Part shown: piece by piece, positions 20,654 through 28,092 of the stretch
How positions within the stretch are numbered: position 1 is the first letter of the stretch
How the letters are laid out: every line of letters starts with the position of its first letter
From: an uncultured Verrucomicrobiota bacterium
GTDB lineage: Bacteria > Verrucomicrobiota > Verrucomicrobiia > Chthoniobacterales > SZAS-18
DNA length: 37,550 nucleotides
Direction: 5' to 3'
NCBI GenBank assembly: GCA_937859745.1
Contig: CALMAQ010000245.1
Coordinates: forward strand, 1 to 37,550
The notes under the pieces: model-generated
What the model was told of the DNA's origin: nothing
Database searches by the model: none
Seen by the model: only the letters and a program-made list of their open reading frames with translations
Made by a program: the position numbers and the translations under genes

Positions 20654-22111
20654 TCAGACGGCGATCCCGTAACGCTTCATTTTATTATACAAAGTGGGCC
20701 GGTGGATCCCGAGGATTTTGGCCGCCTTCAGCTTGTTGCCGTGGGTTTGCGCCAGCGCCTGGAGAATCGTGCGCCGTTCGCGGTCGTCCAAGTTCAGGCT
20801 GACGCTCTCGGAATCTACCACCGACGCGGCGGCGTGCCCGCTGTCCGTGTGGTTGCCTGGGGGGACGTTGGGAGGCACAACCAATTGTTCCTGCAACTCG
20901 CGAGGCAGCAGCAGTTCCGGCGGCAGGCTTTGCTCCGTGATGACGTTGTCCTTCGAGAGGACGACGGCGTACTCAATGGCGTTTTGCAACTGGCGCACGT
21001 TGCCGGGCCAGGTAAACTCGCGCAGGCGGGTCAACGCCTCGGCGGTCAGTTGCGGTTCGGCGCGCTCCATCTGGCGCGCGTAGCGCTTGACGAACGCGGC
21101 GACGAGCGGCGGGATGTCCTCGCGCCGGTCCCGCAAAGCCGGGATCTCGATCTGGAAAGTATTGATGCGGTAGTACAAGTCGGGACGCAGCAACCCGTCT
21201 CGCAGGGCGCGTGCGATCCCTTGGTTGGTGGCTGCCACGAGCCGGAAGTCCGCCTTGAGCGTCTTCGTGCTGCCCAGTGGGCGAAACTCGCGCTCTTGGA
21301 GCACGCGCAGGAAACGGGTCTGCAAGGTGGCGGGCATCTCGGCGATCTCGTCGAGAAAGAGCGTGCCCCCGGCGGCAGCCGCGATCATGCCCGGAAAATC
21401 GTTCACCGCCCCCGTGAACGCTCCTTTGACATAGCCGAAAAGTTCGCCTTCGATGAGGTGCTGGGGCAGCGCCGCGCAATTGAGCTTGACCAGCGGACCC
21501 GCTGTCCGGCGGCTGCGCGCGTGGATCAGGTTGGCCACGACCTCCTTGCCCACCCCGCTCTCGCCTGTCACCAGCACGTTGGCGTGCGAGGGCGCGATCT
21601 GCGTGATGAACTCCTCGATTTCGACCATGCGCCGGTTCTTGAACACCGGCGAAAGCTGCGCCTCCGCCCGTTTGAGCTGCGCCTTGAGTTCCTTGGTCTC
21701 TTCCCGAAGGCTTTCCGTCTCGCGCACCAGGGCCTGCTGCTCGAAGGCGCGCAGCATCAGGCTGAGCAGCTCTTCGGGCGCGTAGGGCTTGCTGATGAAG
21801 TGGAACGCGCCCAGCTTGATGGAATCGATGGCGTTGCTCAACGAGTCCTGCGCCGTCAGCACGATGATCTGGATGCGCGGGATGGTCTGCTTGACCTTTG
21901 TCAGCACGTCCAATCCGCTGGCGTCCGGCAGGCCGATGTCCAGCAGGATTAGGTCAGGGCCGTCAGATTTGGCGGCGGCTTCGAGACCGAGCGCAGCGGT
22001 GCGGGCCGTTTCAACCCGGTAGTGGTAGCGCGTTAGCAGCGCCTCGAGCGTCATCAGGATCGGACGCTCGTCGTCGATGATCAGGACTTTCTTGGTCTCG
22101 CCGTGGCTCAT
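20654..22111 (-). CDS. NtrC-type sigma-54-dependent response regulator
   Basis: The 485-residue activator has the three standard parts. The receiver domain (1-120) has acidic DD at 13-14, phospho-acceptor Asp58 in LLDIGLP and Lys108. The AAA+ domain has Walker A GESGVGKE at 183-190, the sigma-54 contact loop GAFTGA at 230-235, LFLDEI (Walker B) and the arginine-finger region. A Fis-type helix-turn-helix forms the C-terminus (NKLKAAKILGIHRPTLYNKMKRYGI). It should oligomerise on upstream DNA sites and drive open-complex formation by RpoN, whose gene is 2.5 kb away on the same strand. The start overlaps the kinase stop as ATGA, so kinase and regulator are translated together. The regulated genes are not shown by sequence; the exported peptide genes at 26118 are candidates. 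Confidence 0.95.
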   Translation of the reverse strand: MSHGETKKVLIIDDERPILMTLEALLTRYHYRVETARTAALGLEAAAKSDGPDLILLDIGLPDASGLDVLTKVKQTIPRIQIIVLTAQDSLSNAIDSIKLGAFHFISKPYAPEELLSLMLRAFEQQALVRETESLREETKELKAQLKRAEAQLSPVFKNRRMVEIEEFITQIAPSHANVLVTGESGVGKEVVANLIHARSRRTAGPLVKLNCAALPQHLIEGELFGYVKGAFTGAVNDFPGMIAAAAGGTLFLDEIAEMPATLQTRFLRVLQEREFRPLGSTKTLKADFRLVAATNQGIARALRDGLLRPDLYYRINTFQIEIPALRDRREDIPPLVAAFVKRYARQMERAEPQLTAEALTRLREFTWPGNVRQLQNAIEYAVVLSKDNVITEQSLPPELLLPRELQEQLVVPPNVPPGNHTDSGHAAASVVDSESVSLNLDDRERRTILQALAQTHGNKLKAAKILGIHRPTLYNKMKRYGIAV

Positions 22112-22830
22112 GACGGACTAGCCGCGGGTAACGTGACAGTAGACACCAATGTTTGTGCGGGCGCGTCGTACCGCGCGGCGAAGCAGCCTCCCTGGGACTC
22201 CACGATGTGCCGGACGCGGAAGAGCCCCAGGCCATAGGCTCCCCGGCGCGTGCTCAGCAGGGGGTGGCAGCCCCAGTCCTCCATGGGAATGGCGGGAGGT
22301 TGGGGGGAATGTTCCCGCAGCGTCACGAGTGCCATTTCACCTTGCACCGCCGCTTCGATGATTGTCTTCGCGTCACCGGCGCGGAAATGCGAAGCGTTGG
22401 CGAGAAGTTCGAGCAACGCTAACATCGTCATGTCCGGGTCGATCCTGAGCAGCGCGTCGCCCACCGCGATCCGCCATTCGAAGGCATGCTTGGCCGGAGT
22501 CTGCCCACGCTCGAAACGCTCCCGGAGATCCTCGAAGAAGTCAGCGGCTGGATAGTCGAACGGGTGCAGCGAAACCGCGGAGGTCGAGACACGCACTGCC
22601 TGCAACTGTTTGGTGAGGTTGGCCAGGGTGCCGCGGATGCGCTTGATCTCGTCCACCGCCTCGGGGTCCGTGGAAATTTCGCCCAGGAACGTGAGCTGGA
22701 GTTCCAACGCGTTGAGCCCGTTGCGCACGTCGTGCGTCAACTGTCCGACGAAACTCTCGACCCGGTCCCAGGGAACCTCGGTGCTGCGGTCTGGACTGGC
22801 CTCGGGGACGGAGTGGGCGGGAGGAGTCAT
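22108..22830 (-). CDS. Soluble histidine kinase paired with the NtrC-type regulator
   Basis: The 240-residue protein has no membrane segment and no recognised sensor domain, only a short polar N-terminus (1-20). The dimerisation helix carries the phospho-accepting His33 in LTHDVRNGLNALELQ. The ATPase domain keeps the N-box (LLELLANASHF, Asn145) and a late G-box (YGLGLFRVRHIVESQGG). The DxGxG element between them is poorly conserved: only EDWG is seen, before a short lid. It therefore resembles NtrB-type kinases cut down to the catalytic core, and ATP binding may be weak. Signal input must come from a partner protein. The gene overlaps the regulator by ATGA. A possible -24/-12 element lies directly before the ATG (22841-22855). 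Confidence 0.85.
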   Translation of the reverse strand: MTPPAHSVPEASPDRSTEVPWDRVESFVGQLTHDVRNGLNALELQLTFLGEISTDPEAVDEIKRIRGTLANLTKQLQAVRVSTSAVSLHPFDYPAADFFEDLRERFERGQTPAKHAFEWRIAVGDALLRIDPDMTMLALLELLANASHFRAGDAKTIIEAAVQGEMALVTLREHSPQPPAIPMEDWGCHPLLSTRRGAYGLGLFRVRHIVESQGGCFAARYDAPAQTLVSTVTLPAASPS

Positions 22831-24601: not shown

Positions 24602-26008
24602 TCAATACTGCTTACGCATGTTGCTGGGCAAGATGTTCAACTCGTTGCGGTACTTCGCCACGGTCCGGCGGGCGATGGGGATGCCGCGTTCGCTCAGGAT
24701 CGAGACGATGTCCTTGTCGCTGAGCGGGTTGATCGCACTCTCGGACTTGATCAGGTCGAGGATCGCTTCCTTGACGCTGGTATTGCTCATTGACTCGCCC
24801 GTCGCGGTCTGGTAGCCCGGCGTGAAGAAATAGCGCATCTCAAAGACGCCCTGTGGGGTGGAGATGTACTTCCCCGAGATCGCGCGGCTGACCGTGGTTT
24901 CGTGTACGCCCACCGCCTCCGCGATCTGCACCATCGTCATGGGGCGCAGGTAGGCCGTGCCGTTCTCGAGGAACTCCTCCTGTCGGCTGACGATCTGGTT
25001 GGCGATGTTCGAGATCGTCTGCTGGCGCTGGTGGATGCTCTTGATGAGGAACTTGCCGCTGCGAATCTTGTCGCGGATGTAGTCCTTCACGTCGCCGCCG
25101 CTGTCGTTCTGCGACATGATGTCTTTGTAAGCGTTGGAGATCCGCAGGTGGGGAATCTGTTCCCCGTTGAGCATGACGGTGTAGTTGTCACCGATCTTCT
25201 CGACGCTGACGTCGGGCAGGACGTAATTGTTCGGGTCGGGCGCGAAGATCGCCCCCGGCTTCGGGTCGAGCGTGGCGATGGAATACGCCGCTTGCTGCAC
25301 CTGATCGACGGTCACGCCGAGCCGGCGCGCGATCTCCGGGAAACGCCGTTTGCCGAGTTCGTCCAGGTGCTTACTGATGATCAGGTACTCGAGCGATTTT
25401 TCCTTCTCCTGGCGGCGGAGCTGGATCAGGAGGCATTCGCGCAAGTCCAGGGCACCGACTCCGACCGGATGAAAGCTTTGGATGATCTCGATCAAACGCC
25501 GCAGGTCCGAAGCGGCGACGCCGGTGTTGGCGCTCATTTCCTCCGGGTTGGTCTGTAGGAAGCCGTTGTCGTCGATGTTGCCGATGATTAGTTCCGCCAA
25601 GCGCTGGTCACTCTTGCTCAATCCGACGCTGTTGATCTGGCCGATCAGGTGCTGCTGGAGCGTTTCCTGATTGGCGATGGAATCGAAAAAGAACTGCCGC
25701 CGTTCCTCGTCCTCGTCGCTGCGGCCGTTGTAGCTGCTGTTCTGCGACATGTACTCGCGCCATTCCTCGTCGAGCTTGGCGAGTTGGTTGAACTCCTCTT
25801 GAAAGTCGTCGGCTGGCTGGGCGGGTTCTTCGCACGACGCCTCGGGCGCTTCCTCCTCGAGCACCGGGTTGGTTTGCAGTTCCTGTTGCACGATGTTTCG
25901 CAGTTCCAGCATCGGGGCCTGGAGGATCACCAGGCTTTGCTGCAATTGCGGGGCCAGAACCTGCTGCATCGACAGGTTCTGCGTTTGCTGCATTCCGGGG
26001 CTTGCCAT
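24602..26008 (-). CDS. rpoN: RNA polymerase sigma-54 factor
   Basis: RpoN recognises -24/-12 promoters and needs an AAA+ activator. The 468-residue product shows all regions: region I, Gln/Leu-rich, at about 5-50 (LSMQQVLAPQLQQSLVILQ); an acidic region II (SCEEPAQPADDFQEEF and DEDEERR); the core-binding part; the helix-turn-helix VGVHETTVSRAISGKY; and the RpoN box ARRTVAKYRNEL near the C-terminus. ATG 26008 is chosen because region I starts immediately after; the open frame upstream is non-conserved. A 15-base imperfect palindrome lies in the leader. It is divergent from two small exported-peptide genes that have a good sigma-54 promoter, and the window also holds a sigma-54 activator and glnD. 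Confidence 0.97.
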   Translation of the reverse strand: MASPGMQQTQNLSMQQVLAPQLQQSLVILQAPMLELRNIVQQELQTNPVLEEEAPEASCEEPAQPADDFQEEFNQLAKLDEEWREYMSQNSSYNGRSDEDEERRQFFFDSIANQETLQQHLIGQINSVGLSKSDQRLAELIIGNIDDNGFLQTNPEEMSANTGVAASDLRRLIEIIQSFHPVGVGALDLRECLLIQLRRQEKEKSLEYLIISKHLDELGKRRFPEIARRLGVTVDQVQQAAYSIATLDPKPGAIFAPDPNNYVLPDVSVEKIGDNYTVMLNGEQIPHLRISNAYKDIMSQNDSGGDVKDYIRDKIRSGKFLIKSIHQRQQTISNIANQIVSRQEEFLENGTAYLRPMTMVQIAEAVGVHETTVSRAISGKYISTPQGVFEMRYFFTPGYQTATGESMSNTSVKEAILDLIKSESAINPLSDKDIVSILSERGIPIARRTVAKYRNELNILPSNMRKQY

Positions 26009-26022
26009 AACGAAAGCAAGAA

Positions 26023-26037
26023 TGGGCAATATTCCCA
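26023..26037. promoter_or_regulatory. Short palindrome in the rpoN leader
   Basis: TGGGCAATATTCCCA is a 15-base inverted repeat with one mismatched pair, 14 bases before the rpoN ATG. It may be an operator or a hairpin that controls rpoN translation. Only the symmetry supports this. Confidence 0.25.
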
Positions 26038-26073
26038 ATGTGAGCAAGCGAAAAGGTTGAGTATTTTCGATTT

Positions 26074-26089
26074 TGGAACGTTTTCTGCT
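26074..26089 (+). promoter_or_regulatory. Sigma-54 (-24/-12) promoter for the exported peptide genes
   Basis: TGGAACGTTTTCTGCT matches the consensus TGGCACG-N4-TTGCW at 10 of 12 fixed positions. GG (26075-26076) and GC (26087-26088) are exactly 10 bases apart. Transcription would begin near 26100, 18 bases ahead of the ATG at 26118. It is the best such site I found in the window, and it lies beside rpoN itself. Confidence 0.65.
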
Positions 26090-26117
26090 GCGTTTCGCGT
26101 CGTCTCTGATTCCACGC

Positions 26118-26402
26118 ATGAAAAAACCATCTGACCTCTTTCTTTTCGACCGTCACACGGCACTGACCGCCAGCTTTTTTGCGGTGATTCTCGCGGGCTG
26201 GCTCGCCACGCCGTCGCTTCGTTCCCAGGCGGCGTCCACCACGACCGCCAACGCCGCCTTGACTCCGCTGCTCGCCAAACTCAAGACTCAGCAAGACCTA
26301 ATCGCGGCCAACCAGACGAAGATCGAAGCCCAGACCGCGCAATTGAAGGAAGAAATCCGCGAAACCAAGATTTACGCCGGTCGCGCTGGCAGCCACCGCT
26401 AA
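26118..26402 (+). CDS. Small exported coiled-coil protein, first of a tandem pair
   Basis: The 94-residue product is not recognised as a known family. It has a basic start, a hydrophobic segment (LTASFFAVILAGWLATPSL, about 15-34) acting as a signal peptide or anchor, then a Thr/Ala spacer. A helical heptad-like stretch runs to the end (LLAKLKTQQDLIAANQTK and on), closing with RETKIYAGRAG. The next gene encodes a shorter protein with the same plan and a near-identical ending (REAKIFARRG), so the two are paralogues. A good sigma-54 promoter lies 29 bases upstream. The N-terminus overlaps nothing, and the frame starts right at the ATG. Function unknown; an envelope or secreted structural role is a guess. 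Confidence 0.75.
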   Translation: MKKPSDLFLFDRHTALTASFFAVILAGWLATPSLRSQAASTTTANAALTPLLAKLKTQQDLIAANQTKIEAQTAQLKEEIRETKIYAGRAGSHR

Positions 26403-26439
26403 ACCCAAGAGCACCTCAATCCACAATCCTTCCCGCCGT

Positions 26440-26673
26440 ATGAAAACCGCTTCCTATCCCATCCTCCTGGCCGCCGCGTTGCTGGTCTGCACGCTGCCTC
26501 CCCACCGCGCGCAGTCGCAAGCCCAGCCGGCACCCGTTGACCCGCTCGCCGCCCTCCAGGCGCTGCAAACCGCCAACGACGACCTGCTCAAGCGCCAGGA
26601 AGCCACGCTCAAGGATCTGACCGACATGACCGCCGAAGCGCGCGAGGCGAAAATCTTCGCCCGCCGCGGCTGA
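26440..26673 (+). CDS. Small exported coiled-coil protein, second of a tandem pair
   Basis: The 77-residue product has a clear signal peptide (ILLAAALLVCTLPPHRAQSQA, cleavage near residue 26). A proline/alanine spacer follows, then a helical region (LAALQALQTANDDLLKRQEA) with hydrophobic spacing suited to a coiled coil, ending in REAKIFARRG. The ending and the helix align with the gene 37 bases upstream (RETKIYAGRAG), so the pair arose by duplication. Both are probably transcribed from the sigma-54 promoter at 26074. The stop lies 3 bases before the convergent glmM stop. No domain recognised. Confidence 0.75.
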   Translation: MKTASYPILLAAALLVCTLPPHRAQSQAQPAPVDPLAALQALQTANDDLLKRQEATLKDLTDMTAEAREAKIFARRG

Positions 26674-26676
26674 GGC

Positions 26677-28092
26677 TCACGCGCCGATGCTCGCGACGAG
26701 GCTGGCCGCGATGCGGTCGGCCTGGGTTTCGATCATCGCTTGGTCGCGGCCTTCCACGAGCAACCGCACCTTCGGCTCCGTCCCGGAGTACCGCAGCAGG
26801 ACGCGGCCTTTTCCCGCCAAGGCTTGCTCCGTTTGCTGGACGAGCCCGGACACCTCGTGCAAGTCGTCCAATGGCGGCTTCCGCGCCACTTTGAGGCTGC
26901 GTTGCGCCTGCGGATATTTGACGAGGCAGCGTTTGAGTTCGCTGAGCGGTTTGCCCGTGTCGAGCATGATCCGCAGGATCTGCAGGGCCGTGATGATGCC
27001 GTCGCCCGTGGTCGTGTAATCGCGGAAGATCATGTGTCCGCTCTGCTCGCCACCCAGGTTGAGGCCCGCGCGGACCATCTCCTCGAGCACGTAGCGGTCT
27101 CCCACCTGCGTGCGGACCACCACGCCGCCGCAGTCTGCGAGGGATTCCTCCAGCCCGTAGTTGCTCATCACCGTGGCGGCTAGGGTGTTCTTGGACAGGC
27201 GACCCTGCCGCAGGAACTCGCGCGCGGCGATGGCCATCACCTCGTCGCCATCGACTAATTCGCCATTCTCGTCGCAGAGAAGGACCCGGTCGGCGTCGCC
27301 GTCGTGGGTGATTCCCACCTGCGCGCCTGTCTGGCGGACGAGCAACTGGATTTCCTGCGGGTAGGTGCTGCCGCAGTCGCGGTTGATGTTGGTGCCGTCC
27401 GGGTTGTTGTGAAAGGTGTAAACGTCGGCCCCGAGTTCACGCAGGATGCAGGGGGTCGATTTGTAGGCGGCCCCGTTCGCCACATCCACGGCGATGCGGA
27501 GGTTTTCCAGGGTGAGCTTGCGCGGCAGGCTGGCCTTGGCAAACTCGACGTATCGTCCCAGGGCGTCATCGATCCGCTTGGCGCGGCCGATTTTGCCCGC
27601 CGTGGGCCGGATGTTCTCGATCTGGCCGCTGAAGACCAGGTCTTCGATCTGCCGCTCGACCTCGTCCTCGAGCTTGTAGCCGTCGTGGCGGAAGAACTTG
27701 ATGCCGTTGTCCTCATAGGAATTATGCGACGCCGTGAGCACGATCCCCGCATCGCAGCGTAGCGAACGCGTGATGTAAGCCACCCCGGGCGTGGGCAGCG
27801 GCCCCAGTTGGAGCACATCCACCCCCAGCGACATGAGCCCCGCCGCCAGCGCGTCCTCCAACATGTAGCCGCTCTGGCGGGTGTCCTTGCCCAGCGCGAT
27901 GGTTGGCCGCCCGCTGGCGCGACCTTGTCCCCGTCCCAGTTGAGTGATGACGTGGGCGGCGGCGCGCCCCAGCTTGAGCGCGGTTTCGGCCGTCACGGGC
28001 TCGACATTCGCCATGCCGCGCACTCCGTCCGTGCCGAAAATACGCCGCGGCTTGTTGCTGGTCTTGGGGAAAGGGGCGTCGGAACCGTTCAT
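26677..28092 (-). CDS. glmM: Phosphoglucosamine mutase
   Basis: GlmM converts glucosamine 6-phosphate to glucosamine 1-phosphate, the precursor of UDP-GlcNAc for peptidoglycan and lipopolysaccharide. The 471-residue product begins with a short non-conserved tail and then IFGTDGVRG. The phospho-serine loop is VLTASHNSYEDNG, with Ser122. The metal loop is HDGDADRVLL, the sugar-binding loop is GGEQSGH, and the phosphate-binding end is RYSGTEPKVR. It is the last gene of a run folP-cdaA-small protein-glmM. In Firmicutes GlmM binds and inhibits CdaA, so the linkage is probably functional. The N-terminal extension of about 17 residues could instead be untranslated if a later start is used. Confidence 0.97.
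   Translation of the reverse strand: MNGSDAPFPKTSNKPRRIFGTDGVRGMANVEPVTAETALKLGRAAAHVITQLGRGQGRASGRPTIALGKDTRQSGYMLEDALAAGLMSLGVDVLQLGPLPTPGVAYITRSLRCDAGIVLTASHNSYEDNGIKFFRHDGYKLEDEVERQIEDLVFSGQIENIRPTAGKIGRAKRIDDALGRYVEFAKASLPRKLTLENLRIAVDVANGAAYKSTPCILRELGADVYTFHNNPDGTNINRDCGSTYPQEIQLLVRQTGAQVGITHDGDADRVLLCDENGELVDGDEVMAIAAREFLRQGRLSKNTLAATVMSNYGLEESLADCGGVVVRTQVGDRYVLEEMVRAGLNLGGEQSGHMIFRDYTTTGDGIITALQILRIMLDTGKPLSELKRCLVKYPQAQRSLKVARKPPLDDLHEVSGLVQQTEQALAGKGRVLLRYSGTEPKVRLLVEGRDQAMIETQADRIAASLVASIGA

Follow-up and report, generated by a model that had tools for sequence, protein, structure and literature searches.

A conserved pair of small, predicted exported helical proteins beside rpoN in Chthoniobacterales, with a putative sigma-54 promoter and a co-occurring NtrC-type activator

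We identified a pair of small genes, here named pepA and pepB, that lies divergent from rpoN (sigma-54), is conserved within the order Chthoniobacterales, is preceded by sigma-54-type promoter sites and co-occurs with one particular NtrC-type activator (EBP). Regulation of pepAB by sigma-54, with this EBP as the likely activator, is well supported by the genome comparisons presented below. With middling confidence, we favour a broader reading in which the EBP switches on transcription by sigma-54 at pepAB and, as a rule, at rpoN too, and the exported helices serve as a coiled-coil accessory of the envelope, similar to ZraP though not homologous to it. The main features of the window (the whole stretch of DNA analysed, 37.5 kb) are the following.

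20654 to 22111, reverse strand: NtrC-type response regulator of the window (Pfam), a paralog of the EBP that co-occurs with pepAB
24602 to 26008, reverse strand: rpoN (sigma-54), divergent neighbour of pepA; TIGR02395 at 430.7 bits against a cut-off of 277.35
26009 to 26117, no strand: rpoN-pepA intergenic region, 109 bp; in relatives, a predicted bidirectional sigma-54 promoter region
26074 to 26089, forward strand: sigma-54-type -24/-12 promoter TGGAACGTTTTCTGCT, facing pepA; predicted transcription start at about 26100
26118 to 26402, forward strand: pepA, an ORF of 94 amino acids with a hydrophobic N-terminal predicted export signal, one long helix and the basic end KIYAGRAGSHR
26440 to 26673, forward strand: pepB, an ORF of 77 amino acids with a predicted export signal, one long helix and the end REAKIFARRG; duplicate of pepA
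26677 to 28092, reverse strand: glmM (phosphoglucosamine mutase by sequence), convergent with pepB, its boundary 3 bp after pepB

The preliminary description of this DNA had placed two adjacent genes divergent from rpoN, and the open reading frames agree, with pepA and pepB on the strand opposite to rpoN. The start of rpoN was fixed at 26008 by an N-terminus (MASPGMQQTQ) that is conserved in relatives; the ORF running to the outermost ATG, up to 26119, was rejected as an annotation artefact. The C-terminal end of pepA reads RETKIYAGRAGSHR, compared with REAKIFARRG in pepB.

A first search among 57 relatives detected pepB in 17 genomes, and the loci around these matches contain a pepA-pepB tandem that adjoins rpoN wherever the rpoN locus is in view. 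Across Chthoniobacterales, whose records include Chthoniobacter flavus Ellin428, strong matches to pepA occur in 44 of 147 genomes and rpoN is present in 142. C. flavus itself carries the locus (L189, G374) and belongs to the family in which the pepA-facing site is weaker. Homologues of both peptides, which the preliminary description had proposed to seek in related genomes, thus exist, and the pair, the RxxKI-x-R-G ending and the -24/-12 site occur together beside rpoN. Our locus set comprises 144 loci with the 5' end of rpoN (some genomes are counted twice). In 92 of these pepA adjoins rpoN (62 distinct intergenic regions), and pepB is present in every one of the 92; neither gene is found in 48 rpoN loci with enough upstream sequence. 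Deeper profiles and reading of divergent ORFs revealed no diverged, hidden pairs in the pair-less genomes. On the RpoN tree, the presence of the pair requires approximately 5-6 changes, which are clustered; among them, the loss in the clade of Candidatus Udaeobacter is clear.

In three genomes (G006, G015 and G016) the pair is located away from rpoN, with pepA and pepB still together. Genome G006 has two rpoN genes (L111, L112) and the pair is beside neither. Two tandem pepA-type genes precede pepB in G350 (L104), and a second pepA-like gene is found on another contig in G046 (L116, C66). Both genes are under purifying selection (dN/dS 0.07-0.33 over 22 comparisons, with changes mostly at third positions; approximately 0.2 for pepA within the genus).

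Outside the order, a class-wide search of 286 genomes returned weak matches in family f18 only, the best at 6e-7. This family, from another order, encodes a similar small, predicted-exported helical protein (L238:8687-8926, L142-L145) with the pattern MNxKYAAVFALA...LRRRSS. It is at most a possible homologue of the pair; in the one case with a larger region it lies 3' of a glutaredoxin-like gene and not beside rpoN, and the sigma-54-like site there runs into the 3' end of the preceding coding frame. Three other weak hits, in G336, G376 and G382, proved to be longer proteins of no relation. By these searches, the pepAB pair is restricted to one order, Chthoniobacterales.

The promoter predicted upstream of pepA consists of TGGAACG (26074-26080), TTTT and CTGCT (26085-26089), with GG at 26075-26076 and GC at 26087-26088 giving an exact GG-N10-GC spacing, as had been claimed. 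Its last T sits 28 nt ahead of the pepA ATG (26118). Scored with a hand-set consensus matrix (TGGCAC-N5-TTGC type), it is the top sigma-54 match in the window, at 15.0 bits compared with 12.5 for the next best. Among 61 distinct rpoN-pepA intergenic regions, sites of at least 10 bits face pepA in 37 and rpoN in 48, versus 1.1 and 1.05, respectively, expected from dinucleotide shuffles. In family f8 the site facing pepA is mostly 29-31 nt before the ATG and that facing rpoN mostly 35-41 nt before rpoN. In Chthoniobacteraceae the GG-N10-GC site on the pepA side is weaker and frequently lies 13 nt from the ATG, and it is mainly in this group that a good pepA-facing site is missing by the matrix (approximately 40% of pair loci overall). 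Between the -24 elements of back-to-back sites, the distance is commonly 20-45 bp. The window's genus has the pepA-facing site only, the rpoN-facing side scoring -5.0 bits in the window. Judged from its sequence, the intergenic region is thus usually a bidirectional sigma-54 promoter, and a promoter of the pepA side only in the window's genus.

Sites facing rpoN also occur in approximately 26 of 41 loci without pepAB; control of rpoN by sigma-54 is thus probably older than the pair or persists after its loss. A -24/-12 site approximately 30-40 nt before the rpoN start is found across much of Chthoniobacterales (L069-L228), including genomes without pepAB, and in a large part of the order sigma-54 therefore appears to control its own gene. 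The window's genus, like part of the Udaeobacter clade, has lost this site. Several pair-less families (L132-L141, L206) have a sigma-54-like site that points in the direction opposite to rpoN, where no small exported ORF is present. A genome-wide scan of 13 genomes for TGGCNYGN4YTGCT showed no enrichment, the motif being mostly rarer than its reversed control, and we therefore claim no sigma-54 regulon.

The rpoN-facing sites of pair-less genomes and the weak pepA-facing sites of Chthoniobacteraceae could also be explained by proximity only, whereby the sigma-54 site is the autoregulatory promoter of rpoN and pepAB are hitch-hikers on a housekeeping promoter. We consider this very unlikely, given that the sites on the pepA strand keep a near-constant distance in most of family f8, that the window's genus retains the pepA-facing site alone, and that two of the three displaced pairs keep a sigma-54-like site (11.0 and 9.1 bits).

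In families f8 and f3 and in parts of f5, an NtrC-type EBP takes the place of glmM as the convergent neighbour of pepB. It has the domain composition of the NtrC family, with a REC domain, an AAA+ domain with GAFTGA and a Fis-type HTH, and E-values divide its orthologs clearly from paralogs. An ortholog is present in 44 of 44 genomes with the pair (in G004 just an edge fragment of 122 residues with 75% identity). The pair is found in none of the 84 genomes that lack the EBP, and 19 genomes have the EBP alone, so the EBP must have another role too. Fisher's test on this association gives 9e-23, a value that ignores kinship, and the co-occurrence has few independent losses behind it. The EBP adjoins the pair in 20 genomes and is located elsewhere in 24, including that of the window, where the ortholog is on another contig (G000:C217:8959-10323, 72% identity).

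The preliminary description had pointed to a sigma-54 activator carried in the window. Such a regulator exists at 20654-22111, but we rejected it as the partner of pepAB, because it is a 39% paralog of the conserved activator, whose 72% ortholog in this genome is the one on contig C217. It is paired with a kinase-like gene (22108-22830; weak HisKA and HATPase_c matches) that has no obvious sensor domain, and the two (20654-22830) sit downstream of pgi. Among previously described classes, this regulator resembles the PEP-CTERM response regulators and sigma-54 exopolysaccharide regulons, as it does many NtrC-type models. However, it falls below the equivalog cut-off and is not the co-occurring EBP, and pepA and pepB lack a PEP-CTERM anchor.

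In Candidatus Udaeobacter (L314), the amidohydrolase gene normally found ahead of the EBP lies directly against rpoN, and both the EBP and pepAB are gone; this joint loss may represent one deletion. The EBP of family f4 is located immediately ahead of rpoN, and pepAB is absent there. Upstream of the EBP gene we detected no sigma-54 site, nor did we identify an enhancer site for the EBP; we count both results against the favoured reading.

PepA and PepB were proposed to be products of duplication, and profile-profile comparison of their alignments bears this out: the probability is 97.6 (E 3.4e-12, 51 columns), and we thus regard the two genes as duplicates. AlphaFold2 predicts one long helix in each protein (residues 43-93 in PepA and 35-76 in PepB), with a core pLDDT of 96-98. 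Each also has a predicted Sec export signal, read by eye as a hydrophobic N-terminus followed by S/A-Q (approximately residues 1-36 in PepA and 1-27 in PepB). The residues Q58, N65 and R81 in PepA and N46, Q53 and R76 in PepB are invariant, and the spacing within Q58/N65 and within N46/Q53 is exactly seven residues. Conservation shows lag-7 autocorrelation (p 0.0001 for pepB, 0.011 for pepA) and, for pepB only, significant power at 3.5 residues (p 0.001, against 0.11 for pepA). Because conservation is heptad-spaced, a coiled coil is likely for both proteins, more clearly for PepB and more weakly for PepA. Of the coiled-coil helix described earlier, the helix is predicted and the heptad spacing of conservation is clear in pepB; the case for pepA is weaker, and hydrophobicity alone gave no significant periodicity in either protein. 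Constancy is highest in the polar layers and in an R-x-x-[KR]-I-x-x-R-G tail, and the C-termini are net-positive.

Searches of Pfam, NCBIfam and PDB with pepA and pepB found no family, only scattered coiled-coil matches below cut-off. A match to HrpA pilin (E 0.12) was rejected as a family identity, and no sequence or profile match to a ZraP/CpxP-type family was obtained in these databases. We found nothing on the rpoN loci of Chthoniobacterales in the open-access literature, and PMC3162934 makes no mention of Verrucomicrobia. The suggestion that the exported pair was undescribed is consistent with these searches. We conclude that the protein family, the obligate pairing of its two members and the promoter shared with rpoN appear undescribed, and that an EBP-controlled sigma-54 target encoding small exported helical proteins is of an already known kind.

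Small Sec-type proteins that are almost entirely one predicted helix might be building blocks of the envelope or of a surface layer, such as a tether, matrix or fibre, for which sigma-54 just sets the level. The link between sigma-54 and the bacterial exterior drawn in the title of PMC3162934 would fit such a role, as would the stray weak Pfam matches, the LPP zipper among others, although these fall below cut-off. Like Lpp and similar small coiled coils of the envelope, PepA and PepB combine an export signal, here predicted, with one helix of approximately 45-55 residues bearing heptads. Unlike Lpp, they have no lipobox (window sequences), no Cys beyond residue 32 (77 aligned members) and no conserved C-terminal Lys (absent from most members) for an Lpp-type crosslink; the LPP Pfam model reached E 0.03, below cut-off, in 1 of 41 members. 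Moreover, over half of the genomes in the order lack the pair, while rpoN is nearly universal among them, and the need for an inducible EBP would be unusual for bulk structural proteins. We therefore regard a structural role as rather improbable.

Alternatively, PepA and PepB, or their conserved C-terminal tails, could be exported regulatory peptides that an envelope kinase senses and that feed back on the EBP and rpoN. The bidirectional promoter with rpoN and the tie to the EBP would make a feedback loop natural, and the constancy of the polar layers and tail would fit such a role. Yet we recognized no kinase gene beside the EBP in the relatives examined, the tail is near-constant across genera, unlike that of typical signalling peptides, and, for a signal, a 40-50-residue helix is long. 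Such a function seems to us quite unlikely. We also think it very improbable that the shared bidirectional promoter under one EBP lets the state of the envelope, sensed via PepA and PepB, set the sigma-54 level of the cell.

The accessory role that we favour would proceed as follows. Following an old duplication, pepAB would form a two-gene operon, transcribed by sigma-54 RNA polymerase from the promoter back-to-back with that of rpoN. The conserved orphan NtrC-type EBP would activate this promoter, and also that of rpoN where the rpoN-facing site persists. PepA and PepB would leave by the Sec route, with the signal removed at the S/A-Q site, and their single long helices would pair, most likely PepA with PepB, to give a small coiled coil in which the buried polar layers are invariant and the C-terminal tail is basic. 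In the envelope the two proteins may act as a stress or maintenance accessory, as ZraP does in the sigma-54 ZraSR system.

In the Psp operon, controlled by PspF and sigma-54, an EBP likewise governs small envelope-associated helical proteins, as we propose for pepAB. However, Psp proteins are cytoplasmic-facing or integral, whereas the PepA/PepB helix is predicted to be exported, and no family match above cut-off links the two. Another parallel is ZraP/ZraSR of E. coli and Salmonella, where ZraR, a sigma-54-dependent regulator, activates the chaperone ZraP (PMC7657598). With pepAB this system would have in common a small helical protein, whose export we predict from sequence, under sigma-54 and an NtrC-type response regulator. 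They differ in that pepAB encodes two smaller, paralogous proteins with no sequence match to ZraP, has a promoter in common with rpoN itself and has no recognized adjacent kinase.

Chthoniobacterales are abundant soil bacteria that nearly all encode sigma-54, and its targets there are apparently unstudied in the searchable literature. The pepAB locus provides a first conserved and easily scored sigma-54 target, with an undescribed protein family, a predicted promoter and activator, and a clear loss in Candidatus Udaeobacter. The arrangement of the predicted sites further suggests that rpoN in Chthoniobacterales is under its own control. Work on this one small operon in Chthoniobacter flavus could open up the sigma-54 system of these bacteria.
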